From Maricaulis sp. (GTDB lineage: Bacteria; Pseudomonadota; Alphaproteobacteria; Caulobacterales; Maricaulaceae), in NCBI RefSeq assembly GCF_030149235.1, contig NZ_JASBRW010000085.1:29765-93764 (forward strand): a DNA stretch of 64,000 nt, in the 5' to 3' direction. A program made the translations under genes and the position numbers. Positions 6,138 to 60,023 of this stretch are shown here, one piece after another (position 1 is the first letter of the stretch; each line of letters opens with the position of its first letter). The notes under the pieces are model-generated. The model was not told where the DNA came from and searched no databases. It saw nothing but the letters and a program-made list of their open reading frames with translations.

Positions 6138-6274
6138 TATCGGGTCCTTGTCATGGTTGAACATGACCCCATCGTTACGGCCCCGCTTCGCTCGCGTCGT
6201 CCGGAAGCATGATTGAGGACGACCCGAAACATGTTTCGGGACGCATTTTCCGGTTTTGGGGCTTGGTCGGCCTG

Positions 6275-7453
6275 TCAGGACGCCTGTTTCTTGCGGGTCC
6301 GGTATTGCGACGGTGTCATGTCCAGGCTGGCCTTGAACGCCTTGTTGAAGGTGACACGGTTGGAAAAGCCACTCTCGATCGCGATGCGCTCGAGCGGGAA
6401 ATGCTGGCCCGGGGCATCGATCATGTCGATCGCGTGCTGGACGCGATGAGCATTCACCAGCTTGTAGAAATTCGAACCCATATACTGGTTGATGACCTGC
6501 GATACCGTGTGAGACTTCATGCCGATATTCGCAGCCAGCTTGGTCAGGGTCAGGCGCTCGTCGAGATAGTCCTGGTGTTCGCGAAGCCGGGTCTCGATCA
6601 GCTCGGCGATCTCCTGCGATGCGCTCTCCGGCAGGGCGGAATGCAGGTATTTTATCTTGGCGTCCTGTGCCGCCGGCGCGGTCTGCGGTGTCTCGGCGAG
6701 GGAGCGTTCTTCCGGCGTGAGCAGGAAGTCGGCATCCTGCATGCCGCGATATCCCATGGTCAGGATGATCGCCGCCATGAACAAAAGCCAGGCACTACTC
6801 ACATGCGACAGCGTGCCCACGCCGAACCCCTGCTGGGCCAGGAAGAGCCCCACCCACACCGCTTCCAGCGCCAGGAGCGAGATCGCCAGAAACCGCATCT
6901 GGGCGAGCAGGGTGCGGCTGTCATCGGCCCGCAGCGTGTCGATGCGGGCGGCGTAATTGCCCAGCATTCGCCAGGACAGGATGAGATAGGCGAGCAGGAA
7001 GAGCTTGATCGCCACCAGCTGGACAATGACCCCGGGCGGGAGCGCCTGTGTGGCCGGGCTCAGCACAGCCTCCCACATGGCGATCTTCGCGGCTGCGGGC
7101 TGGAAGACGTGACGGGCGTTATAGATCCAGATTGCAGCCGCCGGCAGCAATTGGACCGCCCAAAGCCAGGCCGGATAGGGCGCATGTCCCGTCATGCGCC
7201 GGACATAGGCGTAGAAGACCGGGCCGAGGATGAGCACCATGCCGGGCAGGAGGTCGAGCAGGTGAGGTGCGCTCGGGTAGAAGCCCGAATGCAGCATGCC
7301 GCCCTCGAACAGCTTGTAGCCCATCAACCCGGTGATCAGGGCGAGCAGCACGCCGGGACCGCGCCCGCGGGTCTTGTTCGCCAGGACCAGGGTGATCATG
7401 AGGGCATGGGTCGCGGCGGCGAAATAGAGCACGCCCAGGAGTGTCTCGTTCAC
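6275..7453 (-). CDS. AraC-family transcriptional regulator with N-terminal multi-TM domain
   Basis: Hydrophobic N-terminal half; C-terminal AraC HTH (LTLTKLAANIGMKSHTVSQVINQYMGSNFYKLVNAHRVQHA...IAIESGFSNRVTFNKAFKASLDMTPSQYRTR). Confidence 0.9.
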   Translation of the reverse strand: MNETLLGVLYFAAATHALMITLVLANKTRGRGPGVLLALITGLMGYKLFEGGMLHSGFYPSAPHLLDLLPGMVLILGPVFYAYVRRMTGHAPYPAWLWAVQLLPAAAIWIYNARHVFQPAAAKIAMWEAVLSPATQALPPGVIVQLVAIKLFLLAYLILSWRMLGNYAARIDTLRADDSRTLLAQMRFLAISLLALEAVWVGLFLAQQGFGVGTLSHVSSAWLLFMAAIILTMGYRGMQDADFLLTPEERSLAETPQTAPAAQDAKIKYLHSALPESASQEIAELIETRLREHQDYLDERLTLTKLAANIGMKSHTVSQVINQYMGSNFYKLVNAHRVQHAIDMIDAPGQHFPLERIAIESGFSNRVTFNKAFKASLDMTPSQYRTRKKQAS

Positions 7454-14302: not shown

Positions 14303-15739
14303 ATGAGGCCTTCCTTGCTAAGATTTACCGATCTGCGACAGACCTATCCCGACAAACGCCCCGCCGCCGAACGGCGCGAGGATTTCCGCGAAATCCGCAA
14401 TCGCTTCGAGCCCGCCGCCGCGGCCGAGCAGTCCTCGCGGTGTTCCCAGTGCGGGGTTCCGTTTTGTCAGTCGGGCTGTCCGCTCGGTAACAATATTCCC
14501 GACTGGCTTGCCCTCGCCGCCGACGGCCATTTGCGCGAGGCCTATGACCTGTCCTCGGCGACCTCGACCATGCCGGAAATCTGCGGCCGTATCTGCCCGC
14601 AAGACCGTCTGTGTGAGGGGGCCTGTGTCATCGAGAAGTCCTCGCACGGGGCGGTAACCATCGGCTCGGTCGAGCAATACATTACCGACACGGCCTGGGA
14701 AGAAGGTTGGGTCGAGCCGATCCAGGTCGCTCCTCCGCGCGGTCAGAGCGTGGGGATTATCGGGTCTGGTCCCGCCGGACTGGCAGCGGCAGAACGTTTG
14801 CGCGAGGCCGGGTTCGATATTGTCGTCTATGAACGCGCGGACCGGGCGGGCGGTCTGCTGATCTATGGCATTCCGGGCTTCAAGCTGGAAAAGCCGGTCG
14901 TGCAATGCCGCATCGAGCGTCTCGAGACCGCTGGAGTCGAATTCCGGCTCGGGGTCGAGGTGGGCCATGATATCACCCTGGAAGAGATCCGGTCGGAGCA
15001 TCACGCCGTGCTGCTCGCAACTGGCGTTTATGTGCCGCGCGAGCTGGACTGCCCCGGGTCCGACAAGGGTGTGATCGGCGCGCTGGATTTCCTGATCCGC
15101 GCCAATCGCGATGATCTCGGCGACGCTCCGGCCGACGACAATGCGCTCAATGCTGAAGGCCGGGATGTCGTTGTCATTGGCGGCGGTGATACCGCCATGG
15201 ACTGCGTCCGCACGGCGGTGCGCCAGGGTGCCGCCTCGGTCAGCTGTCTCTATCGCCGCGACCGCGCCAATATGCCCGGATCGGCTCGCGAGGTGGTCTC
15301 GGCGGAGGAAGAGGGCGTGCAGTTCCACTGGCTCACGGCCCCGCTCGCGATTGAACATGATGCCGAGGGTGCGGTCCGCGCCGTGCGCGGCCAGGGCATG
15401 CGCCTCGGTGCGCCGGGTCTTGGCGGCCGCCGCGCGGTCGAGCCATGCCCGGAAATTATCAAGGAGATCAAGGCCGACATGGTTATTTCCGCCCTTGGCT
15501 TCACACCGGAAGACCTGCCGGGAAAACTGCACTCGGTCGATCTCGCCGTGCGCCGCTCCGGCGAGCTTGAAATCGACCGCGCCACCAAGATGACCAGCCT
15601 GGATGGCGTGTTTGCCGCCGGTGATATTGTCCGCGGTGCCTCGCTCGTAGTCTGGGCCCTGAAAGATGGTCTCGATGCCGCGCAGGCCATCAAGGCCTAT
15701 CTCGATAACCGGCTCGAAGTTCTGGGGGCGGCGGAATGA
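14303..15739 (+). CDS. gltD: Glutamate synthase (NADPH) small subunit
   Basis: CSQCGVPFCQSGCPLGNNIPDW Fe-S motif, GSGPAGLAAAERLREAGF FAD motif, GGGDTAMDCVRTA NADPH motif; start taken at 14303 rather than longest ORF at 14144. Confidence 0.93.
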   Translation: MRPSLLRFTDLRQTYPDKRPAAERREDFREIRNRFEPAAAAEQSSRCSQCGVPFCQSGCPLGNNIPDWLALAADGHLREAYDLSSATSTMPEICGRICPQDRLCEGACVIEKSSHGAVTIGSVEQYITDTAWEEGWVEPIQVAPPRGQSVGIIGSGPAGLAAAERLREAGFDIVVYERADRAGGLLIYGIPGFKLEKPVVQCRIERLETAGVEFRLGVEVGHDITLEEIRSEHHAVLLATGVYVPRELDCPGSDKGVIGALDFLIRANRDDLGDAPADDNALNAEGRDVVVIGGGDTAMDCVRTAVRQGAASVSCLYRRDRANMPGSAREVVSAEEEGVQFHWLTAPLAIEHDAEGAVRAVRGQGMRLGAPGLGGRRAVEPCPEIIKEIKADMVISALGFTPEDLPGKLHSVDLAVRRSGELEIDRATKMTSLDGVFAAGDIVRGASLVVWALKDGLDAAQAIKAYLDNRLEVLGAAE

Positions 15740-18700
15740 GCCGCGGCGCGGGAACGCCCGCTGACTATCTCGCCCGCCGTGACGTGCTCGAACAGGCTGG
15801 TCTTTACCGGCCCGAGGATGATCGCGATGCCTGTGGTGTCGGCCTGGTCGCCGACATCCAGGGACGGGCCCGCCGCGAAATTGTCGAAACCGCGATCGAT
15901 GCCCTCAAATCGGTCTGGCACCGCGGCGCGGTGGATGCCGACGGGCTGACCGGTGACGGGGCGGGGCTCCGGGTCGGCGTGGCCCAGGACTTCTTCAAGT
16001 CCGCTGTGGCGCGCACCGGGCATGAGCCGGAACAGGGCGATGTCATTGTCGGCATGATCTTCATGTCGCGCACCGATTTCAGTGCCCGGGAACGCTCGCG
16101 CGCCATTGTCGAGGCGGAAATCCTGCGCGAGGGCTTTTCCTTCTATGGCTGGCGCCAGCCGCCCATCGATACCAGCGTGCTCGGTGACAAGGCGCGGGCC
16201 ACCCTGCCGGAGATCGAGCAGATCCTGTTCCGCGAACCCGGTGGGCGCGATCCCGAAGCGGTCGAGCGGACGCTCTACGTGGTCCGTCGCCGGATCGAGC
16301 AGCGGGCTCGGGAGGAAGGCCTGCGGGAGCTCTATGTCTGCTCGCTGTCCTCGCGCGACGTGATCTATAAGGGCCTGTTCCGGGCCCAGGATATCGACGC
16401 CTTCTACCAGGATTTGCGCAATCCGGATTTCGTCTCGCCCTTCGCGATTTTTCACCAGCGCTATTCCACCAACACCTTTCCGGAATGGCGCCTGGCACAG
16501 CCTTTCCGCATGCTTGCCCACAATGGCGAGATCAATACGCTGCGCGGCAATTCCAACTGGATGAAGAGCCATGAACGCCTGGTCGAGGACTCGGTGCTGG
16601 CGGGCAATGGCGAGGATATCCTGCCGGTCATCCAGCCCGGCGCCTCGGACAGTGCGGCTCTCGATCAGACCTTTGAATTCCTGGTGCGGACCGGATTGCC
16701 TGCCCCCATGGCCAAGACCATGCTGGTGCCCGAGGCTTGGTCCAAGCGCGAGGATGTCATGCCGGCGGCCTGGCGTGACATGTATGCCTACTGCAATTCG
16801 GTGATGGAGCCCTGGGATGGCCCGGCTGCGATTGCCGCCTTTGATGGTCGCTGGATCGTGGCGGGTCTGGACCGCAATGGTCTGCGCCCGACCCGCTGGG
16901 CCCGCGCCCGCGACGGCATGCTGGTCGCCGGCTCCGAAGCCGGCATGGCGCGGATCGCACCGGAGGATGTGGTCGAGCGCGGCGCGATCACGCCGGGCCG
17001 TTTGATCGCGCTGGATCTGCAGGAAGGTCAGTTCTACCGGGAGACGGAAATCCTCGACCGGTTGAGCGAGCAGCAACCCTATCGGCGCTGGATCGGTGAG
17101 ATCGAGGATATCGAGGACGTCGTTGGTCCCGGCGCCGAGCCGGAGCTGTTCGATGAGCCGGATCGCGTCCGGCGCCAGATCGCCTCGGGCTATAGTTTCG
17201 AGAGCGTGCAGCTGGTCCTCAATGTCATGGCAGACGAGGGCAAGGAAGCCGTCGGGTCGATGGGCGATGACACGCCTTTGGCCGTGCTGTCGGACAGTTA
17301 CCGGCCGTTGTCACACTTCTTTCGGCAGAATTTCTCCCAGGTCACCAACCCCCCGATCGACCCGCTGCGCGAAGGCCGGGTGATGGGGCTGAAGACCCGT
17401 TTCCGCAATCTGGGCAATTTGCTCGGTCCGGCCCAGCAGCGCTCCAGCGTTCTGGTGCTGGACAGCCCGGTTCTGACCAATGGCGCGTTCGGGCGCTGGC
17501 GCGAGCACATCAAGGACGAGGTGCGCGAGATCGATTGCCTGTTCGAGCCGGCCAAGGCGAGCGGGGATGGCCGGGTGCTGGCGGAGGCGATGGATGCGGT
17601 CATTGACCAGGCCATTGAAGCGGTCCGCCATGGAGCCGCTCACCTGATCCTGACCGATCACCGCCAGACCGCGACGCTGGCCGCCCTGCCGATGATCCTT
17701 GTCACCGGTGCCGTTCATGCGCGTCTGACCGAGCAGGGCCTGCGCAATCGCTGCTCGATCAATGTGCGCTCGGCCGAGTGTGCCGACCCGCATTATGCAG
17801 CGGTCCTGATCGGTCTCGGTGCCACGACAATAAACCCCTATCTCGCCTTCGACACCGTTACGGCGCCGGCCAAGGGTGATGAGGACGAGGCCCGTACCCG
17901 CGCCCAATTGCTCAAACAGGCCTTCGATGGCGGGCTTTTGAAAGTCATGTCGAAGATGGGCATTTCGGTGATCTCCTCCTATCGCGGGGGCTGTGACTTC
18001 GAAGTGCTCGGCCTGTCGCGGGCCCTGGTGGAAACCTATCTGCCCGGCGTGGTGAGCCGGATCTCCGGCATGGGCCTGTCCGGTCTGGAAGGCCGCCTGG
18101 TCAATCTGCATCGCGGCGCCTGGCAGCATGAGCGGGCCCGTTTGCCGATCGGGGGCTTCTTCCGTCAGCGCAGCAGCGGCGACCGGCATGCGCTTTCGGC
18201 CCAGTCGATTGACGCCCTGCACAAGGCCGTGCGCGACAATGAACCGTCGGCCTGGGTGCAGTACCGTGAAGCCATTGAGGCCCAGGGGCCAGTGCATCTG
18301 CGTGATCTCATGGCCATGCGCCCGCTGGGCAAGGCGGTCAGCGTTGATGCGGTCGAGTCCATCAATGGAATTCGCCGGCGCTTTGTGACGCCGGGCATGT
18401 CGCTGGGGGCGCTATCGCCGGAGGCCCATGGCGCGCTCAACATCGCCATGAACCGGATCGGGGCCAAGTCCGTGTCCGGTGAGGGAGGCGAGGACCCCAA
18501 GCGCTACACGCCCCTGCCGAGCGGGGAGAACCTTAACTCGGCGGTGAAGCAGATTGCTTCCGGCCGCTTCGGTGTGACGGCGGAATACCTCAATCAGTGC
18601 CGTGAGATCGAGATCAAGATCGCCCAGGGTGCCAAGCCCGGTGAGGGCGGGCAATTGCCCGGTTTCAAGGTTACCGACTTCATTGCGCGCATGCGCCTGT

Positions 18701-20265
18701 CGACGCCGGGCGTCAGCCTGATCTCGCCGCCGCCGCACCACGATATCTACTCCATCGAGGACCTGGCGCAGCTGATCTACGACCTCAAACAGATCAACCC
18801 GATTGCCCGAGTCGGTGTGAAACTGGTCGCTGCGGCCGGGGTCGGTGCCGTCGCTGCCGGTGTCGCCAAGGCGCGCGCCGATGTGATCAATATTTCGGGG
18901 TCGGTCGGGGGCACGGGTGCCGCGGCGCTGAGCTCGATCAAGTTTGCCGGCGGGCCGCTGGAGCTGGGCCTCGCCGAGGCGCACCAGATGCTGTCCCTCA
19001 ACGGGTTGCGCGAGCGCGTCACCCTGCGCGCGGATGGGGGTATCCGCACCGGTCGCGATATCGTCATTGCCGCGATGATCGGGGCCGAGGAATTCGGTAT
19101 CGGCACCACGGCACTTCTGGCGCTCGGCTGTCTGATGGTGCGTCAGTGCCACTCCAATACCTGTCCGGTGGGCGTGTGTACCCAGGATGATGATCTGCGC
19201 GCCCGCTTTGGCGGTGCGCCTGATCATGTGGTCAATCTGATGACCTATCTGGCCCAGGATGTACGCGATATCCTGGCCAGCCTCGGCGCTACCTCGCTTG
19301 AAGACGTGATCGGCCGGGCCGACTTGCTGACCCAGGTCAGCCGCGGATCCTCGACGCTCGATGACCTCGATCTCAGCGCCATCATGGCGCGCGCCGATGC
19401 CGCCGACCGGCCGGCCCGTTCGACCCGGATGCAGCGCAATGACGTGTCGCCGACGCTGGATGACCGCATCCTGGTCGATGCGGCCCCGGCCTTTGACCGC
19501 GGCGAGAAGATGCAACTCGATTACGATGTGCGGAATACCGATCGTGCGATCGGTGCGCGCACTTCCTCCGAGTTCGTTTCTCGCTTCGGCGCGCGCGGGC
19601 CCGGCGAGGACTACCTGACGGTTCGCCTGCGCGGGTCGGCGGGGCAGTCGCTGGGCGCGTTTGCAGCGCGTGGGCTGCGCATCGAGCTGGACGGCGATGC
19701 CAATGACTATGTCGGCAAGGGCCTGTCCGGCGGCAAGCTGGTCGTGCGGCCCTATCGCGGTTCAACGCTGGAAAACCACCACCACGCCATTATCGGTAAT
19801 ACCTGTCTCTACGGGGCCACCTCCGGCTGGCTGTTCGCCGCCGGCCGTGCCGGCCAGCGCTTTGCCGTGCGGAATTCCGGGGCCCAGGCGGTCGTCGAAG
19901 GCTGCGGGGCGAATGGCTGTGAGTACATGACTGGCGGTGTCGTTGTCCTGATCGGCCCGGTCGGCGACAATTTCGCGGCCGGCATGACCGGCGGCGATGT
20001 CCTCGTCTACGACCCGGAGGACCGGCTCGCCGCGCGTCTCAACAGCGAGACGGTAGTGGTCAGCCCGCTCGAGCGTGAAGCCGATGCGCTGTGCCGCTCC
20101 CTGATCATCGAACACCTGGCCCAGACCGGGTCCGCCCAGGCGGACCAGCTGCTGGCCAATTGGGATGTGGTGCGGGCTGACTTCGTCCATGTCCAGGGCC
20201 GCGAAATCGTTGCGCGGCAACGGGCGGTGGACAAGGCCATGCATCGCGAGGCGGAAAACAGCTGA
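15736..20265 (+). CDS. gltB: Glutamate synthase large subunit
   Basis: 1509 aa; N-terminal Cys after propeptide (DACGVGLVADIQG), FMN/Fe-S region CLMVRQCHSNTCPVGVCTQ, C-terminal GXGXG domain; ATGA overlap with gltD. Confidence 0.97.
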   Translation: MSRGAGTPADYLARRDVLEQAGLYRPEDDRDACGVGLVADIQGRARREIVETAIDALKSVWHRGAVDADGLTGDGAGLRVGVAQDFFKSAVARTGHEPEQGDVIVGMIFMSRTDFSARERSRAIVEAEILREGFSFYGWRQPPIDTSVLGDKARATLPEIEQILFREPGGRDPEAVERTLYVVRRRIEQRAREEGLRELYVCSLSSRDVIYKGLFRAQDIDAFYQDLRNPDFVSPFAIFHQRYSTNTFPEWRLAQPFRMLAHNGEINTLRGNSNWMKSHERLVEDSVLAGNGEDILPVIQPGASDSAALDQTFEFLVRTGLPAPMAKTMLVPEAWSKREDVMPAAWRDMYAYCNSVMEPWDGPAAIAAFDGRWIVAGLDRNGLRPTRWARARDGMLVAGSEAGMARIAPEDVVERGAITPGRLIALDLQEGQFYRETEILDRLSEQQPYRRWIGEIEDIEDVVGPGAEPELFDEPDRVRRQIASGYSFESVQLVLNVMADEGKEAVGSMGDDTPLAVLSDSYRPLSHFFRQNFSQVTNPPIDPLREGRVMGLKTRFRNLGNLLGPAQQRSSVLVLDSPVLTNGAFGRWREHIKDEVREIDCLFEPAKASGDGRVLAEAMDAVIDQAIEAVRHGAAHLILTDHRQTATLAALPMILVTGAVHARLTEQGLRNRCSINVRSAECADPHYAAVLIGLGATTINPYLAFDTVTAPAKGDEDEARTRAQLLKQAFDGGLLKVMSKMGISVISSYRGGCDFEVLGLSRALVETYLPGVVSRISGMGLSGLEGRLVNLHRGAWQHERARLPIGGFFRQRSSGDRHALSAQSIDALHKAVRDNEPSAWVQYREAIEAQGPVHLRDLMAMRPLGKAVSVDAVESINGIRRRFVTPGMSLGALSPEAHGALNIAMNRIGAKSVSGEGGEDPKRYTPLPSGENLNSAVKQIASGRFGVTAEYLNQCREIEIKIAQGAKPGEGGQLPGFKVTDFIARMRLSTPGVSLISPPPHHDIYSIEDLAQLIYDLKQINPIARVGVKLVAAAGVGAVAAGVAKARADVINISGSVGGTGAAALSSIKFAGGPLELGLAEAHQMLSLNGLRERVTLRADGGIRTGRDIVIAAMIGAEEFGIGTTALLALGCLMVRQCHSNTCPVGVCTQDDDLRARFGGAPDHVVNLMTYLAQDVRDILASLGATSLEDVIGRADLLTQVSRGSSTLDDLDLSAIMARADAADRPARSTRMQRNDVSPTLDDRILVDAAPAFDRGEKMQLDYDVRNTDRAIGARTSSEFVSRFGARGPGEDYLTVRLRGSAGQSLGAFAARGLRIELDGDANDYVGKGLSGGKLVVRPYRGSTLENHHHAIIGNTCLYGATSGWLFAAGRAGQRFAVRNSGAQAVVEGCGANGCEYMTGGVVVLIGPVGDNFAAGMTGGDVLVYDPEDRLAARLNSETVVVSPLEREADALCRSLIIEHLAQTGSAQADQLLANWDVVRADFVHVQGREIVARQRAVDKAMHREAENS

Positions 20266-52746: not shown

Positions 52747-53526
52747 CTAGAGGCGAACCAGGTTGTCCGGGTTGAGGCGCAGTTGCAGCAAATCCTCGAT
52801 GCGATGCACCCGGCCGGTCACCCGCACTGGATCTGCGACATAGCGCAAAATGGGCTGGACCAGGGCCTCGCCCCCGGGATCGGTGAGCATCATGGCCCGG
52901 CTGCGACCCAGCGCGTCGCGGGCATAGAAATAGGGCGGGAGCCCCCCGGCGATGCACAGCATGGCGCAGGCCTTGTGGCTGGCGCCTTCATTGGGCCGCA
53001 TGGCGCCGAACCAGCACTTGCTGTCGAGGATCTCACCATTGATCGTGACCTCGCCGAGATCCTCCTCGGCAAAGCCGGTAAGGCGGGCCGGCAAGGTGTG
53101 GTCGGGCATAATCCAGTCATCGTCATTAGCGACAGCCAACATGACATGACGGCCCCGCTGGATCAGCGAGCCGCGTACAGTGACCCGGTCGCGTGAGATC
53201 CTGGATTCGGCGAGTTTCTCCTGGGCCCCGCACTTGGTGTCGCAGGCCAGCAGTACGGTGCGTAGCGTGCCATCAATTCCCGTGGTCCGCAGCAATGGGT
53301 AGGGAGCCTCGGACAGGTAGCCGGTCAGGCTGACTGGCGTGCCCATATCCCAGCGGCCCAGACCCGCGCCGCCCTGTTTGGCGGCCAGGAAGGCTCCGGT
53401 TCCACCGGCGATTCCGAGCCCCAGGACAGAGAGGCCGAGGAGATAGCGGCGGTCGACTTTCGGCGTGTCGCGATAGCCGACGAAATACTCGCCCTGGTCA
53501 GTGTCGTGGATGAGTTTCCGGCTCAT
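52747..53526 (-). CDS. Membrane-anchored protein with conserved-looking Cys motif, last gene of redox operon
   Basis: Single N-terminal hydrophobic segment (YLLGLSVLGLGIAGGTGAFLAA); CDTKC and SKCWFGAMRPNEGASHKACAMLCIAGGLPPYFY; ATGA overlap with upstream gene. Confidence 0.7.
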   Translation of the reverse strand: MSRKLIHDTDQGEYFVGYRDTPKVDRRYLLGLSVLGLGIAGGTGAFLAAKQGGAGLGRWDMGTPVSLTGYLSEAPYPLLRTTGIDGTLRTVLLACDTKCGAQEKLAESRISRDRVTVRGSLIQRGRHVMLAVANDDDWIMPDHTLPARLTGFAEEDLGEVTINGEILDSKCWFGAMRPNEGASHKACAMLCIAGGLPPYFYARDALGRSRAMMLTDPGGEALVQPILRYVADPVRVTGRVHRIEDLLQLRLNPDNLVRL

Positions 53527-54581
53527 GGCTGGGCCTCCTCGATACGGGCCGGCTCGACATCCGTACCGGCCGGCAGGGCCTTGGTGTTGACGAAGACTAT
53601 GCCATTGCGGATCGCGACCTTGTAAGTCGCGATCTTCTCGTTGAAGGGCGCTGGAGAGCGGCCATCGCGCGGCTTGTATTCATAGCCATGCCAGGGGCAG
53701 ACGACACAGCCATTGACGATGCGGCCTTCGCCGAGCGGGCCGTTCTGGTGTTTGCAGGCATTGGAAATCGCCGAGACCTGCCCGTCATAGCGGAAGACGG
53801 CAATACGTTCGCGGCCCTCGCCGGGGATGATCACGGCGCGGTCATTGGGGATGTCATTCACCGGCCCGGCCTCGACCCAGCCGTCCTCGGCCTTGAACCC
53901 GGAACGCCGGTCCTTCGAGACCTCGCGCCAGCCGGTAATGAGGTGCAGGGCTGTGACCAGTGCGGCTGACCCCATGACCCAGAAGGCATAGGCCGGCGAC
54001 TTCTCATGCTGGACGACGCCGAGGAGAATATGGGCGACGAGCAGGGCGAAGGCGAGATACACGCCCATATGTAGCGCTTTCCAGAACGGAGCGCCGAGAT
54101 TGGCGAGCCAGAAATCATGGCTGGTAGCCGCCATCACGAAGAGGATGAGGAAAGCGGCCAGCCCCAGGCTTTCGAACGGAAAGCCGCCGATACGGTCATA
54201 ATTCGCATTGGTCGTCAGCACCGAGAGCAGGGGGCTGATGTCGGAGAAGCCATGATACCAGACCATCGCCAGTGCGGCATGGATAAGCATCAGGACAAAG
54301 GCCGACACGCCCATATGGCGGCGATTGTACAAGAGCGGTTTGAAGCGCGGCGTGATGCGCGCCATCGGGCCAATGATCAGGATGAAGCTCAGGAGCGAAA
54401 ACCCGGCAAAGCCAAAAGCCCTCATGACCAGTTGGACGGGATGAAAACTCTCGCCCTCTGGCTGGGTCATGCCGGTGACAATGATGAAGCTGGCGATAAA
54501 GGCCAGGATCGCCGCCCACAGGGTCAGAACATAGGAGGTCTTGAAGCCGTTCCAGATGACGGCCTTGTATCCAACCGCCAT
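53523..54581 (-). CDS. Ferric-reductase-like transmembrane protein with C-terminal Rieske [2Fe-2S] domain
   Basis: Multi-TM with His-containing helices (RHMGVSAFVLMLIHAALAM; KALHMGVYLAFALLVAHILLG); Rieske C-x-H...C-x2-H (CKHQNGPLGEGRIVNGCVVCPWHGYEY). Confidence 0.9.
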   Translation of the reverse strand: MAVGYKAVIWNGFKTSYVLTLWAAILAFIASFIIVTGMTQPEGESFHPVQLVMRAFGFAGFSLLSFILIIGPMARITPRFKPLLYNRRHMGVSAFVLMLIHAALAMVWYHGFSDISPLLSVLTTNANYDRIGGFPFESLGLAAFLILFVMAATSHDFWLANLGAPFWKALHMGVYLAFALLVAHILLGVVQHEKSPAYAFWVMGSAALVTALHLITGWREVSKDRRSGFKAEDGWVEAGPVNDIPNDRAVIIPGEGRERIAVFRYDGQVSAISNACKHQNGPLGEGRIVNGCVVCPWHGYEYKPRDGRSPAPFNEKIATYKVAIRNGIVFVNTKALPAGTDVEPARIEEAQP

Positions 54582-54730
54582 CAGCTTGCCTCCTCGATCA
54601 AAGCCGCCGGCAGCGCCGCGTTCTCGGCCGGGTCGGGTTTGTAGGCCAGGGCTGCCCAGCCGGTGATCGCCATTACCGGAAGCAGGATGACCCAGAGCGC
54701 CAGGTGGGCGGTGCGATGCGCGCGTCTCAT
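54581..54730 (-). CDS. 49-aa single-TM small membrane protein
   Basis: MRRAHRTAHLALWVILLPVMAITGWAALAYKPDPAENAALPAALIEEAS; shares one base with the next start (TGATG). Confidence 0.6.
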   Translation of the reverse strand: MRRAHRTAHLALWVILLPVMAITGWAALAYKPDPAENAALPAALIEEAS

Positions 54731-54957
54731 GCGTCTCCTCCCAGCGTCAGGCGCTTGAGCAGGGCGACAAGGAGGATGGGCCATAACGCCGCAACGCCGG
54801 GCGTGATCATAAGCCGGAACTGAAGCGGTGCGGCTTCCGCAGCATTACTGTCAAATCGCTTGATCAGAACCGTCACAAAGGTGAGGGCGAACAGAAGTCC
54901 GATCAGAAAGTAGAGCCCGAGGGCGGTCAGAACTGCCTCCGCCAGTGCCGGATCCAT
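54727..54957 (-). CDS. 76-aa two-TM small membrane protein
   Basis: MDPALAEAVLTALGLYFLIGLLFALTFVTVLIKRFDS...LMITPGVAALWPILLVALLKRLTLGG; ATGA overlap with next gene. Confidence 0.6.
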   Translation of the reverse strand: MDPALAEAVLTALGLYFLIGLLFALTFVTVLIKRFDSNAAEAAPLQFRLMITPGVAALWPILLVALLKRLTLGGDA

Positions 54958-54981
54958 GATTGCGTTCCCCCCTAGTGTGCC

Positions 54982-55014
54982 GCCACGCCCGCTATAGGTC
55001 ACGTTAGGCGTGGC
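54982..55014. promoter_or_regulatory. Inverted repeat gccacgcc-N17-ggcgtggc in the divergent intergenic region
   Basis: 8-bp perfect arms between divergent redox operon and Rieske-ThDP gene. Confidence 0.35.
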
Positions 55015-55154
55015 TGTAGCTCTAAACCACCGAAAACCGGCCGGCATCGAAAATTGTGATCGCGTTTGCTGACGACTTCGCGAGCCAGATGTGATGCTCT
55101 GCCCCGGCCCATCGCGTGTAAAGGCCGCGTACAGTTGAGCACAGGGAGATCAGG

Positions 55155-57140
55155 GTGAACGATACACAAACCGAGCTGGACTGGCACAAGGTGGCCGAGC
55201 TGGACGAGCTGGCCGAGGGGCGCGTCAAATCAGCAACGGCGGGCCGGCATTCGATCGCGCTGGTGCATTTCGATGGCCAGTACGCGGCGATGGACAATCA
55301 CTGTCCGCACCAGGGCGGACCGCTCGGTGAAGGCTCGATCGAAAAAGGTGTCGATGACAAGTGCTGGCTGCGTTGTCCCTGGCATGGCTGGGACTTCGAC
55401 CCGCTCACCGGTGCTCCGCCGGGCGGACATGAGGATGCGGGTCAGACCACCTATCCGGTCGAGGCGCGTGATGACGGCATATATGTCGGCGTCGAGCCCG
55501 AGCCGTCCCACGAGCGCACCGTAACCGATGTGATGGCGGAGACTTTCGTCAACTGGGGCATCAAATCCTGTTTCGGCATGGTCGGGCATTCCAATCTCGG
55601 CCTCGCCGATGCCCTGCGCCTGCGGGAGGAGGCCGGTGAGCTTTCCTATTTCGGGATCCGTCACGAGGGCGCCGCATCTTTCGCCTGCTCCGGCTATGCC
55701 AAATTGTCCGGCCATCCGGCGGCCTGTCTGGCCATTGCCGGTCCAGGCGCCACCAATTTGCTGACCGGTCTTTGGGACGCCAAGGTCGACCGTGCGCCGG
55801 TGCTGGCTTTGACAGGCCAGGTCCAGGTCCAGGTGTTCGGGCCCGGTGCGTTCCAGGATATTGATCTCAAGGCCGCCTTCGATCCGGTCACCCGGTTTTC
55901 ACAGCCGGTGCTCAATTCCTCCAACCATGCCGAGCTTGCCTCGCTGGCGTGCAAGACCGCGATCGTCGAGCGGGATGTAGCCCATCTGATCTTCCCCGAT
56001 GATGTCCAGACCCAGCCCTCCGACCAGGCCGCGGCCGGACCGCTCGGGCGTGTGACCTCGGGTGACATCGCGCCGCCGCAGGAGGAGGTCACAGCCGCCG
56101 CTGACGCGATTGCCCGGGCGAAACGCCCGATGATTATCGTCGGCTATGGCGCGCGGGACGGTATGGACCAGATCACGGCGCTGGCGCGAGAGCTCAACGC
56201 GCCGATCGTTACGACGTTCAAGGCCAAGGGCCAGATCGCGGACAGTGATCCGCTGGCTGCCGGCGTGATCGGCCGGTCCGGTACGCCGATCGCCTCCTGG
56301 TTCATGAATGAGTGTGACCTGATCATTGCGCTGGGGGCGTCCTTCTCAAACCATACGGGGATTGAGCCGAAAAAACCGATCGTTCAGGTCGACTTCGAGC
56401 GCATGCAATTGGGCAAGTTTCACCCTGTGACCTACCCGGTTTGGGGGGAGGTGCGCCGCACGGTCGGTATCATCCGCCATCTCTTGACCAGCCGGGAGCC
56501 GGTGGCGATTGACCAGCGGGCCGAGCTGGCCGAGCGCTGGCGCATCTGGCGCGAGGAAAAACAGCGCCGCCTGGGCGAGAATCGGGGCGAAGGCCTGGCG
56601 GCTGCGGCGGTGTTTGATGCGCTGACGCGCCTGGCGCCGGAAGAGGCGGCCATGGCGGTCGATGTGGGCAATAACACCTATTCCTTCGGCCGCTATTTCG
56701 AGCCCAGCGGGCAGCGGGTGATGATGTCCGGCTATCTCGGCTCGATCGGCTTTTCCTTCCCGGCGGCCATGGGCGCCTGGGCAGCGACGCAGGATTTCGA
56801 GGAGCATCGCCACCGCAAGGTTATCTCGATCTCCGGCGATGGCGGGTTCGGCCAATACGCCATGGAATTCACCACGGCGGTGAAATACGGCATGAACATC
56901 ACCCACATCCTGTTGAACAATTCCCAACTCGGCAAAATCACCAAGGAACAGCGTGCCGGTAACTGGCCGGTCTGGCAGACCAGCCTGGTCAATCCGACCT
57001 TCGCTGGCTTCGCCCGCGCCTGCGGCGGTTATGGCCGTACGGTGAAAAGCCTGGATGACCTGGATGCGGCCATGACCGAAGCCCTGGCCCACGACGGACC
57101 CGCGCTGCTCGAGATCATGACCGATGCCGAACTGGTGTGA
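55155..57140 (+). CDS. N-terminal Rieske domain fused to ThDP-dependent (pyruvate oxidase / acetolactate synthase-like) enzyme
   Basis: GTG start; Rieske motif CPHQGGPLGEGS...CWLRCPWHGWDF; ThDP enzyme: RHEGAASFACSGYAKLSG, GPGATNLLTGLWDA, ISGDGGFGQYAMEFTTAVKYGMNITHILLNN. Confidence 0.93.
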   Translation: MNDTQTELDWHKVAELDELAEGRVKSATAGRHSIALVHFDGQYAAMDNHCPHQGGPLGEGSIEKGVDDKCWLRCPWHGWDFDPLTGAPPGGHEDAGQTTYPVEARDDGIYVGVEPEPSHERTVTDVMAETFVNWGIKSCFGMVGHSNLGLADALRLREEAGELSYFGIRHEGAASFACSGYAKLSGHPAACLAIAGPGATNLLTGLWDAKVDRAPVLALTGQVQVQVFGPGAFQDIDLKAAFDPVTRFSQPVLNSSNHAELASLACKTAIVERDVAHLIFPDDVQTQPSDQAAAGPLGRVTSGDIAPPQEEVTAAADAIARAKRPMIIVGYGARDGMDQITALARELNAPIVTTFKAKGQIADSDPLAAGVIGRSGTPIASWFMNECDLIIALGASFSNHTGIEPKKPIVQVDFERMQLGKFHPVTYPVWGEVRRTVGIIRHLLTSREPVAIDQRAELAERWRIWREEKQRRLGENRGEGLAAAAVFDALTRLAPEEAAMAVDVGNNTYSFGRYFEPSGQRVMMSGYLGSIGFSFPAAMGAWAATQDFEEHRHRKVISISGDGGFGQYAMEFTTAVKYGMNITHILLNNSQLGKITKEQRAGNWPVWQTSLVNPTFAGFARACGGYGRTVKSLDDLDAAMTEALAHDGPALLEIMTDAELV

Positions 57141-57573: not shown

Positions 57574-58359
57574 TCAGGTTTTGCGCTTGAAGTCCGGCGT
57601 GCGCTTGTCGAGGAAGGCACGAAAGCCTTCCTTGAAATCGGCGCTGTTGAAAGCGTCGAGGAACCATTGCCGGGTGACGGGATCCTCATCGGTCTGTCCG
57701 GCCTCGAGCCGGGTCAGCATGGCCTTGGTGATGCGTGCAGTGGCGCTGGAGCGCGTCTCCAGCAGAGCCACGTAGTCGCTGACGGTCGCGGCCAGCTGGT
57801 CGGGTTCCAGCAAGCGGTCGATCAGGCCGATCTGCAGGGCCTCTTCGGCGCTGACATGCCGCCCGGTGAAAAGGAGGTCCTTGGCCGTTGAGAGGCCGAC
57901 CGCTTCGGCCAGGCGCTTGGTGTCATTGAACGGATAGGCCAGGCCCATCTTGGCCGGGGTGATGCCGAAGCGGCTACCCGCGGCGGCAAAGCGAAGATCG
58001 CAGGCGATCGCCAGACCGCATCCGCCGCCAATGCACACGCCCTCGATGGCGGCGAGGGTCGGTTTTGGGAAGTCCGCCAGGGCGTTCAGCCCGTCGGCAA
58101 TGCCGTTGGAATAGGTCTCGGCCCGCTCGAGCGTGGCGTAAGCCGTTTCAAACTCACCAATATCCGCGCCGGAGGCGAAGCTCCCCCCAGTCCCGCGCAC
58201 GACCAGCAGGCGCAGGTCCTCATCCTCGGCCAGCGGGGCGAGGAGTTCGGGAATGGCCAGCCACATCGCCTCGGTCAGCGCATTGTGGCGCCGGGGTCGA
58301 TTGAGGATGAGATCGGCCCGCGGTCCGTCTCGCTCGATGCGGATATCGGCTGTGCTCAC
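57574..58359 (-). CDS. Enoyl-CoA hydratase/isomerase family protein
   Basis: LNRPRRHNALTEAMW; GTGGSFASGADIGEFE; IEGVCIGGGCGLAIACDLRFA. Confidence 0.92.
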   Translation of the reverse strand: MSTADIRIERDGPRADLILNRPRRHNALTEAMWLAIPELLAPLAEDEDLRLLVVRGTGGSFASGADIGEFETAYATLERAETYSNGIADGLNALADFPKPTLAAIEGVCIGGGCGLAIACDLRFAAAGSRFGITPAKMGLAYPFNDTKRLAEAVGLSTAKDLLFTGRHVSAEEALQIGLIDRLLEPDQLAATVSDYVALLETRSSATARITKAMLTRLEAGQTDEDPVTRQWFLDAFNSADFKEGFRAFLDKRTPDFKRKT

Positions 58360-58760
58360 GAGGGCTTGGCCATGGAGCGAAGGACCAGGTCGCGCAGGGT
58401 CACAAAGCCGGCGACCTTGCCATCCTGCAGCACCAGCGCCCGGGTCAGGCGGAAACGGGTCAGCAGGCGGACGGCGTATTTGACATTCATGGCGATGTCG
58501 ACGCTCAGCACCGGTTTCGACATGATCTCGTAAACGCTGACACGCTCGGGCGAACGGTCCTTGCCGATGACCTGTTCGGCGACGTCATGGACGGCGAGGA
58601 TGCCGTATTCGTCGGACTCATCGCGTTTGTCGACGACCAGCGAGCTGACATTCTTTTCCCGCATGAGATCAACGGCTTGGTCGACAGTCGCCAGGCCGTC
58701 AATGGCGATGGGCGAGGGGGTCATTACCTCGCGCACCTGAACATAATCGGTTCCGGTCAT
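58356..58760 (-). CDS. CBS-domain pair protein
   Basis: VREVMTPSPIAIDGLATVDQAVDLMREKNVSSLVVDKRDE; second CBS with IMSKPVLSVDIAMNVKYAVRLL; ATGA overlaps on both sides. Confidence 0.9.
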   Translation of the reverse strand: MTGTDYVQVREVMTPSPIAIDGLATVDQAVDLMREKNVSSLVVDKRDESDEYGILAVHDVAEQVIGKDRSPERVSVYEIMSKPVLSVDIAMNVKYAVRLLTRFRLTRALVLQDGKVAGFVTLRDLVLRSMAKPS

Positions 58761-59107
58761 ATCTTGTCTTCGATCTCTCGTTTGATTTCAGGCAGCTGGC
58801 TGGACAGGCCGACAGCATCCTCGATATCGATCTGGAAGGCGACCCCTGTCCCTGCCTCATCATCAAATTGTCCCGCCTCGCCAATGGCTTCGAGGATGGA
58901 ACGGCTCATATGCGCTTCGACCAGGAAGAGGGCAACATCGCGCTGTCCTTCCAGGGTCAGGCCGAAGAATGTCTTGGGCGGGTTGAGGCCTTCACCGCGG
59001 GCCGCGGTGATGACGGTACACCCGGTGGCGCCGGCCTTGCGTCCGGCTTCGGTGACCTCGTCAGTCTTCTCGTCGGTCACCAGGGCGATAATCAGCTTGA
59101 ACTTCAT
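58757..59107 (-). CDS. PII-like (GlnB-superfamily) protein
   Basis: MKFKLIIALVTDEKTDEVTEAGRKAGATGCTVITAARGEG...; start nested in the end of the upstream DUF1538 gene. Confidence 0.8.
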   Translation of the reverse strand: MKFKLIIALVTDEKTDEVTEAGRKAGATGCTVITAARGEGLNPPKTFFGLTLEGQRDVALFLVEAHMSRSILEAIGEAGQFDDEAGTGVAFQIDIEDAVGLSSQLPEIKREIEDKI

Positions 59108-60023
59108 GCTCGCCTTCCTCCTTCAACTGGGCCACCTCCGCCGCCATTTCCGGCGCGGTTTCGGTGGAGTTCATGTCTGCCTCGTGCGCAGTTTGCGGGG
59201 CCTGCGCGGGCTGCTGCTGTGGCCCCATCGTGGCCAGCGCGTCTGTTGTGCGTTTTTTCTGCCAGGCGGCCCACGCCGCTGACCCCTGGGCGTAGCCCAT
59301 CACCGTGATCATCGGGAACAGGCTCGCCAGGGCGATCAGTCCGAAGCCGTCGATCAACGGACTGCGTCCCGGAACAGTCGAGGCCAGGCCGAGGCCGAGG
59401 GCGGTGACCAGCGGAACCGTCACGGTCGAGGTCGTCACCCCGCCTGAGTCATAGGCCAGTGGCACGATTTCCTTGGGGGCGAACATGGTCTGCACCACGA
59501 CCAGGACATAGCCGACCATCATGTAAAGATGCAGCGGCGTACCGGTGACAATCCGGAAAGCGCCGAGGGCGATCGACAGGGCGACGCCGACGGCCACGGC
59601 GATGCGTAGCGGCCAGGACGAGATGGCTCCGCCGGATGCTTCGTCGGCCTTCAGGGATACGGCGATCAGCGAAGGTTCGGCGATTGTGGTGGAGAAGCCG
59701 ATGGCGAAGGCGAAGAGATAGATCCAGTAATAGCGGGTCCACTCGATCGTTTCCGGCTGACCTTCCGCGCCGTAGATAAAGGCCGGATCGGTCAATTGCC
59801 GGGCCATGGTTTCGCCGAGTGGGAAAAGCGCTTCCTGCAGGCCGACCAGGAAGAGGGCGAGGCCGGCGATCACATAGACGAAGCCGATCAGCACCTGTTT
59901 CAGGTGCGGCACGCGCTGGCGCAGGACGACGACCTGGAAAAACCCGAGCACCAGCGCGATCGGCGCCACATCGCGCAGCGTCGTCACCAGGGTGGTGAGG
60001 GTCTGGATCAGCGCATCGAGCAT
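59061..60023 (-). CDS. DUF1538 membrane protein (second copy)
   Basis: Multi-[52 protein letters not shown]. Confidence 0.88.
   Translation of the reverse strand: MLDALIQTLTTLVTTLRDVAPIALVLGFFQVVVLRQRVPHLKQVLIGFVYVIAGLALFLVGLQEALFPLGETMARQLTDPAFIYGAEGQPETIEWTRYYWIYLFAFAIGFSTTIAEPSLIAVSLKADEASGGAISSWPLRIAVAVGVALSIALGAFRIVTGTPLHLYMMVGYVLVVVQTMFAPKEIVPLAYDSGGVTTSTVTVPLVTALGLGLASTVPGRSPLIDGFGLIALASLFPMITVMGYAQGSAAWAAWQKKRTTDALATMGPQQQPAQAPQTAHEADMNSTETAPEMAAEVAQLKEEGEHEVQADYRPGDRRED

Follow-up and report, generated by a model that had tools for sequence, protein, structure and literature searches.

The window analyzed here is a 64,000 bp stretch of DNA from Maricaulis sp. (contig NZ_JASBRW010000085.1, positions 29,765 to 93,764), and positions 52747-57140 of it hold five genes. 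One of these, RTP, encodes a Rieske [2Fe-2S] domain joined in frame to a thiamine diphosphate (ThDP) enzyme resembling pyruvate oxidase (POX). Divergent from it lie four genes, P5-P4-FRER-P2, which overlap one another by 4, 1, and 4 nt; FRER encodes a putative membrane heme protein that carries a Rieske domain of its own. The genes and their recognizable parts are as follows.

55155-57140, plus strand: RTP, Rieske-ThDP fusion enzyme, 661 amino acids, GTG start (open reading frame and Pfam)
55182-55418, plus strand: Rieske [2Fe-2S] domain of RTP, residues 10-88 (Pfam PF00355, 8e-17)
55518-55871, plus strand: TPP_enzyme_N of RTP, residues 122-239 (Pfam; Glu171 in RHEGA, His145 in GHSN)
56088-56465, plus strand: TPP_enzyme_M (FAD-type) of RTP, residues 312-437 (Pfam; fold match to FAD-containing PoxB)
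56661-57116, plus strand: TPP_enzyme_C of RTP, residues 503-654 (Pfam; GDG...NN ThDP motif, Lys594)
54727-54957, minus strand: P5, 76 amino acids, two predicted transmembrane (TM) helices, first gene of the FRER cassette (homologues beside FRER elsewhere)
54581-54730, minus strand: P4, 49 amino acids, one TM helix (homologues beside FRER elsewhere)
53523-54581, minus strand: FRER, ferric-reductase/MsrQ-like heme protein with C-terminal Rieske domain, 352 amino acids (Pfam Ferric_reduct 1e-13, residues 56-182; Rieske 3e-14)
53622-53879, minus strand: Rieske domain of FRER, residues 235-320 (Pfam)
52747-53526, minus strand: P2, membrane-anchored protein, 259 amino acids, one TM helix, two predicted OB-like barrels, no Pfam family
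52933-53025, minus strand: conserved motif of P2, D168..C171..H184..C187..C191..PP198 (alignment of 25 sequences)

A sequence-only reading of this DNA had claimed both the fusion of a complete Rieske domain to a complete ThDP enzyme and the four overlapping divergent genes, and both claims hold: all the open reading frames are present, and TPP_enzyme_N, _M, and _C matches (each below 1e-28) lie on the same polypeptide as a Rieske domain that scores 61 bits against a PF00355 cut-off of 20. All five genes have a high third-position GC, and a Maricaulis relative (L021) keeps RTP, P2, FRER, P4, and P5 at 93, 82, 88, 83, and 68% identity, respectively, so these are real genes. A search of the intergenic gap for a sigma-70-like promoter found none. 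The Rieske ligands of RTP, C50/H52 and C74/H77, are invariant across 33 aligned sequences that include archaeal and mycobacterial ones. The CxH...CxxH ligands are kept in 81 of 82 collected full-length relatives, the exception being a second, Rieske-less ThDP gene; the spacing is CxH-x21-CxxH in 80 copies, and one has a 16-residue spacer. A fusion due to chance or to an assembly error is ruled out by these counts and by the presence of the same architecture in hundreds of relatives.

RTP is thus a conserved family rather than a local accident. Across 84,980 species genomes 333 relatives were found, and the 80 that were fetched are 66-93% identical and nearly all full-length; their hosts are alpha-, gamma-, and betaproteobacteria and some metagenome-assembled genomes labelled as other phyla. 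Full-length copies, 59-60% identical, lie on plasmids of four haloarchaea, and a plasmid copy in Mycobacteroides abscessus is 54% identical. The family occurs in haloarchaea and in widespread marine bacteria under no more of an annotation than "thiamine pyrophosphate-binding protein". A phage search with RTP yielded ThDP genes of about 30% identity, none of them with a Rieske domain. Pyruvate-oxidase-like ThDP genes lie in short unannotated records labelled Listeria phage (and one Staphylococcus; OR848349.1, OR846819.1, OR848350.1, and OR844999.1), which possibly contain bacterial DNA.

The likeness of RTP to pyruvate oxidases that the sequence-only reading had noticed is confirmed, at a distance. 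Among NCBIfam models those of pyruvate oxidases score highest, but far under their cut-offs (PRK08611, 361 bits against 742; PRK09124, 283 against 792), and the AlphaFold model (pLDDT 85.7, pTM 0.85) has as its closest fold C-terminally truncated PoxB (3eya, TM 0.92), followed by truncated Corynebacterium glutamicum pyruvate:quinone oxidoreductase (PQO). PoxB binds the membrane through its C-terminal tail, and its FAD passes electrons on to quinone. RTP aligns to PoxB residues 3-528 and ends four residues beyond, and therefore is without this tail. From its kinship RTP likely binds FAD. In the same 33 aligned sequences the catalytic Glu171, His145, and Lys594 (at the position of PoxB Phe465) are invariant, and the latter two make plain pyruvate a doubtful substrate. 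On these comparisons RTP appears to be a variant of the pyruvate-oxidase kind that falls outside PoxB in the strict sense.

The same residues give rise to the main rival explanation, which we regard as unlikely: RTP would be a non-oxidative ThDP enzyme (a 1,2-dicarbonyl hydrolase, lyase, or carboligase like IolD, cyclohexane-1,2-dione hydrolase (CDH), or acetohydroxyacid synthase (AHAS)) in which FAD is structural and the Rieske cluster is a sensor of redox state or oxidative damage that switches the enzyme. In alignments, the GHGN of IolD falls on the GHSN that contains His145, at the position of pyruvate decarboxylase (PDC) Asp28, and CDH has His28 at that PDC catalytic position (PMC3534367; PMC12247030); the alignments thus suggest that the three histidines occupy the same position. 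The RTP segment SGYLGSIGF is also similar to SGGLGTMGF of AHAS, and a gene pair for an extracytoplasmic function (ECF) sigma factor and a zinc anti-sigma protein lies at several RTP loci. On the other hand, the POX families are the top-scoring ones and the nearest folds are the redox enzymes POX and PQO. Nor does a sensor role predict the recurrence of Rieske domains on FRER and on the two further flavoenzymes described below.

FRER agrees with its earlier description as an FRE-type heme protein with its own C-terminal Rieske domain. It has a Ferric_reduct domain, six predicted TM helices with both termini cytoplasmic according to the loop charges, and two His pairs (His89/101 and His171/184) like those of two-heme FRE/NOX proteins; by this hydropathy and topology its Rieske domain, in which CxH-x16-CxxH is kept in 36 of 36 sequences, is predicted to face the cytoplasm. 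P2, which carries a SKCWFGAMRPNEG..HKACAMLC motif, is invariant at D168, C171, G174, M176, P178, H184, C187, A188, and C191 in the 25 aligned sequences. Pfam, PDB sequence, and Foldseek searches yielded no firm relative of P2, and its AlphaFold model (pLDDT 85.5) gives weak matches to OB/SSB folds alone. The MsrQ model scores FRER at 48 bits against a cut-off of 130, and the absence of an MsrP partner (P2 belongs to no Pfam family and has an OB-like predicted fold) rules out membership in MsrPQ. The cassette also occurs without RTP, beside other, varied genes. In L117, P5-P4-FRER is directly followed by a gene (6257-7381) that joins a Rieske domain to an NADPH-dependent FMN reductase (FMN_red). 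On Rhizobium plasmids (L130:3057-9868 and L131) the cassette is divergent from genes for a Rieske-less AHAS-like ThDP enzyme, an OpgC-like protein, and a CaiB-type CoA transferase.

Among 50 RTP loci with full 8-kb flanks, FRER lies nearby in 28 and a CPA-type cation/proton antiporter in 30, while the commonest neighbour, at 38, is RGLT, a protein of about 538 amino acids in which a Rieske domain precedes a glutamate-synthase-type FMN enzyme (Glu_synthase) with CX5CX4C; a DUF5996-like protein is found at 17 loci and an ECF sigma factor at eight. RTP and the cassette are divergent in Maricaulis and Parvularculaceae, co-directional in Roseibium (NHE-RGLT-RTP-P5-P4-FRER-P2), and arranged as RGLT-P5P4-FRER-P2-RTP in Roseicyclus and as RTP-DUF5996-FRER-P2-DUF1622-NHE in one gammaproteobacterium.

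Linkage aside, the three genes also tend to share genomes. In a sample of 289 genomes of the class, RTP is in 14, FRER in 15, and full-length RGLT in 8, and each pair occurs together in seven: RTP with FRER (Fisher test with kinship ignored, 6e-7, or 6e-6 without the window genome), RTP with RGLT (9e-10, likewise), and RGLT with FRER (2e-9, likewise). In G048, G162, G144, and G229 the co-occurring genes are unlinked. Of 72,556 plasmids, three have Rieske-RGLT, and RTP is present on each of them. Moreover, five of 15 RTP genomes without a nearby RGLT have its Rieske form elsewhere, whereas FRER turns up elsewhere in only two of the 20 RTP genomes sampled that do not have it nearby; with the plasmids, this makes RGLT the steadier partner of RTP and FRER an optional module. 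The five-gene neighbourhood of the sequence-only reading therefore stands in part: RTP and FRER co-occur beyond chance and are adjacent in several gene orders, but FRER is near RTP at little more than half of the loci and RGLT is commoner.

These counts also bear on the idea that the FRER operon works on its own as a system like MsrPQ, passing electrons from quinol through heme to periplasmic P2, that lies beside RTP through inherited gene order only. Cassettes without RTP in eight of 15 FRER genomes, next to varied genes, the weak MsrQ match, and the clustering of FRER adjacency on the RTP tree all speak for it. Co-occurrence of the two even where they are unlinked, and adjacency held through at least four gene orders, speak against it, and we consider it improbable.

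Several neighbours of RTP deserve mention in their own right. RTP and a Rieske-RGLT that is 60% identical lie together on haloarchaeal megaplasmids (L125, L126, L128, and L133) amid genes for a MerA-like reductase, DsrE, TauE, and rhodanese, which suggests a sulfur or thiol stress setting. A Vibrio sp. THAF190c plasmid (L132:7689-9236) encodes an enzyme 65% identical to the RGLT core with CDGSH motifs in place of the Rieske domain; judging from the sequences, one His-ligated [2Fe-2S] module has been swapped for another on the same FMN core. In several genomes a small TM protein beside RTP (L063:10004-10687 and L099:10871-11551), with no Pfam match, has a TGTGFTT stretch that by eye resembles the pore loop of K+ transporters. 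In the window itself, a minus-strand run at 58356-60023 encodes a CBS-domain protein, a P-II-like protein, and a DUF1538 membrane protein, apparently a regulated transporter operon.

Some of the surroundings could instead reflect a stress-defence island, in which RTP would detoxify a 2-oxoaldehyde or dione and the linked antiporter and potassium proteins would tune cytoplasmic pH and K+, as the Kef systems of Escherichia coli adjust them. Besides the frequent antiporters, such an island would accommodate the ECF/anti-sigma pairs, the distantly related antiporters beside RTP in haloarchaea and Mycobacteroides, and the mercuric-reductase-like, DsrE, peroxiredoxin, and pirin genes near haloarchaeal RTP. 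However, the window's own cluster has no antiporter, antiporters are common genes, and the Kef analogy is drawn from general knowledge; we give this explanation little credence.

We favor, at somewhat less than an even chance, the reading that RTP is a soluble flavin/ThDP oxidoreductase of the pyruvate-oxidase lineage whose Rieske domain is an electron exit to Rieske-tagged partners. RTP would oxidatively cleave a 2-oxo acid or 1,2-dicarbonyl compound at ThDP/FAD, and the N-terminal cluster would draw electrons off the flavin singly, replacing the membrane tail of PoxB as the exit. We infer that these electrons would move between RTP and further proteins bearing a Rieske tag. In many genomes the partner would be the FMN/[3Fe-4S] enzyme RGLT; in the window genome, the cytoplasmic Rieske domain of FRER would take them up, and two b-hemes would carry them on to quinone or periplasmic P2. 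This reading draws on the completeness of the Rieske and ThDP domains with their invariant ligands, on the nearest folds being truncated PoxB and PQO and RTP stopping where the PoxB membrane segment would start, and on the co-occurrence of RTP with FRER and RGLT, unlinked genomes and plasmids included. It draws further on the predicted cytoplasmic placement of the FRER Rieske domain with the NOX/FRE His pairs kept, and on the cassettes that adjoin a Rieske-FMN_red fusion or a Rieske-less ThDP enzyme.

A number of observations weigh against it. AHAS binds FAD without redox use. The Fisher values take no account of relatedness, and five changes on the RTP tree (three of them forced) suffice to explain FRER adjacency, which is thus largely one alphaproteobacterial heritage with losses. 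Of the 20 sampled RTP genomes with no FRER close by, 18 have none anywhere; RGLT is absent from the window genome, which has FRER; and the close relative L022 has RTP and neither of the others. Hence neither FRER nor RGLT is obligatory for RTP, and the five genes as one obligatory system are ruled out by the frequent absence of FRER, by RTP standing alone in L022, and by cassettes without RTP. The absent RGLT is not the cell's sole glutamate synthase, since the window contains an ordinary full-length large subunit at 15736-20265.

A wider scheme, possible though rather doubtful, is a modular Rieske-wired network in Bacteria and Archaea. Unrelated cytosolic flavoenzymes (RTP, RGLT, and the Rieske-FMN reductase) with plug-in Rieske domains would exchange single electrons with one another and, where present, with the P5-P4-FRER-P2 relay. 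The oxidation of 2-oxo acids or dicarbonyls would in this way be coupled directly to the membrane or to amination, with neither NAD(P)H nor a soluble ferredoxin in between. The acceptors of known ThDP oxidases are oxygen, quinone, ferredoxin, or lipoate; a Rieske cluster within the enzyme itself would, if true, be a new electron exit from a ThDP-flavin site. The RTP family, with a second Rieske-fused flavoenzyme (RGLT) and a heme/Rieske membrane protein (FRER) at its side, allows the idea that domain tags wire electron flow to be put to the test. The domains are already known; their combination in RTP was not found in the open-access literature, where no paper on Rieske fusions with pyruvate oxidase, acetolactate synthase, glutamate synthase, MsrQ, or ferric reductase was found.

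Among known systems, PoxB and the pyruvate:quinone oxidoreductases (3EYA, 9EV6) share with RTP the ThDP-FAD fold (residues 121-657), TPP_enzyme_N/M/C with the catalytic Glu, and GDG..NN. RTP differs from PoxB in its N-terminal Rieske domain, in having no C-terminal membrane-binding segment, in Lys594 for Phe465 and His145 for Asp, and in its 25% identity and scores below the curated-model cut-offs. With CDH and IolD it has in common a His at ThDP position 28, and with IolD the GHxN motif, but its sequence is overall nearer to POX, it carries a Rieske domain, and the IolD model gives it 150.8 bits against a cut-off of 715. Rieske-type ferredoxins of ring-hydroxylating dioxygenases have the same CxH...CxxH [2Fe-2S] domain, there an electron shuttle, whereas here it is fused to ThDP, GltS, or FRE modules with no oxygenase near; a role as an aromatic-ring dioxygenase ferredoxin is ruled out, since the additional Rieske domain encoded near RTP belongs to RGLT. 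FRER resembles MsrQ and FRE/NOX proteins in its six TM helices, two His pairs, and periplasm-anchored partner (P2), and departs from them in its C-terminal Rieske domain, in a P2 that is no molybdopterin MsrP, and in the extra small TM proteins P4 and P5. Finally, CDGSH-glutamate synthase fusions are already on record (PMC5859297), and the RGLT core likewise has an N-terminal His-ligated [2Fe-2S] domain, which is a Rieske domain in RGLT and CDGSH in the Vibrio version.

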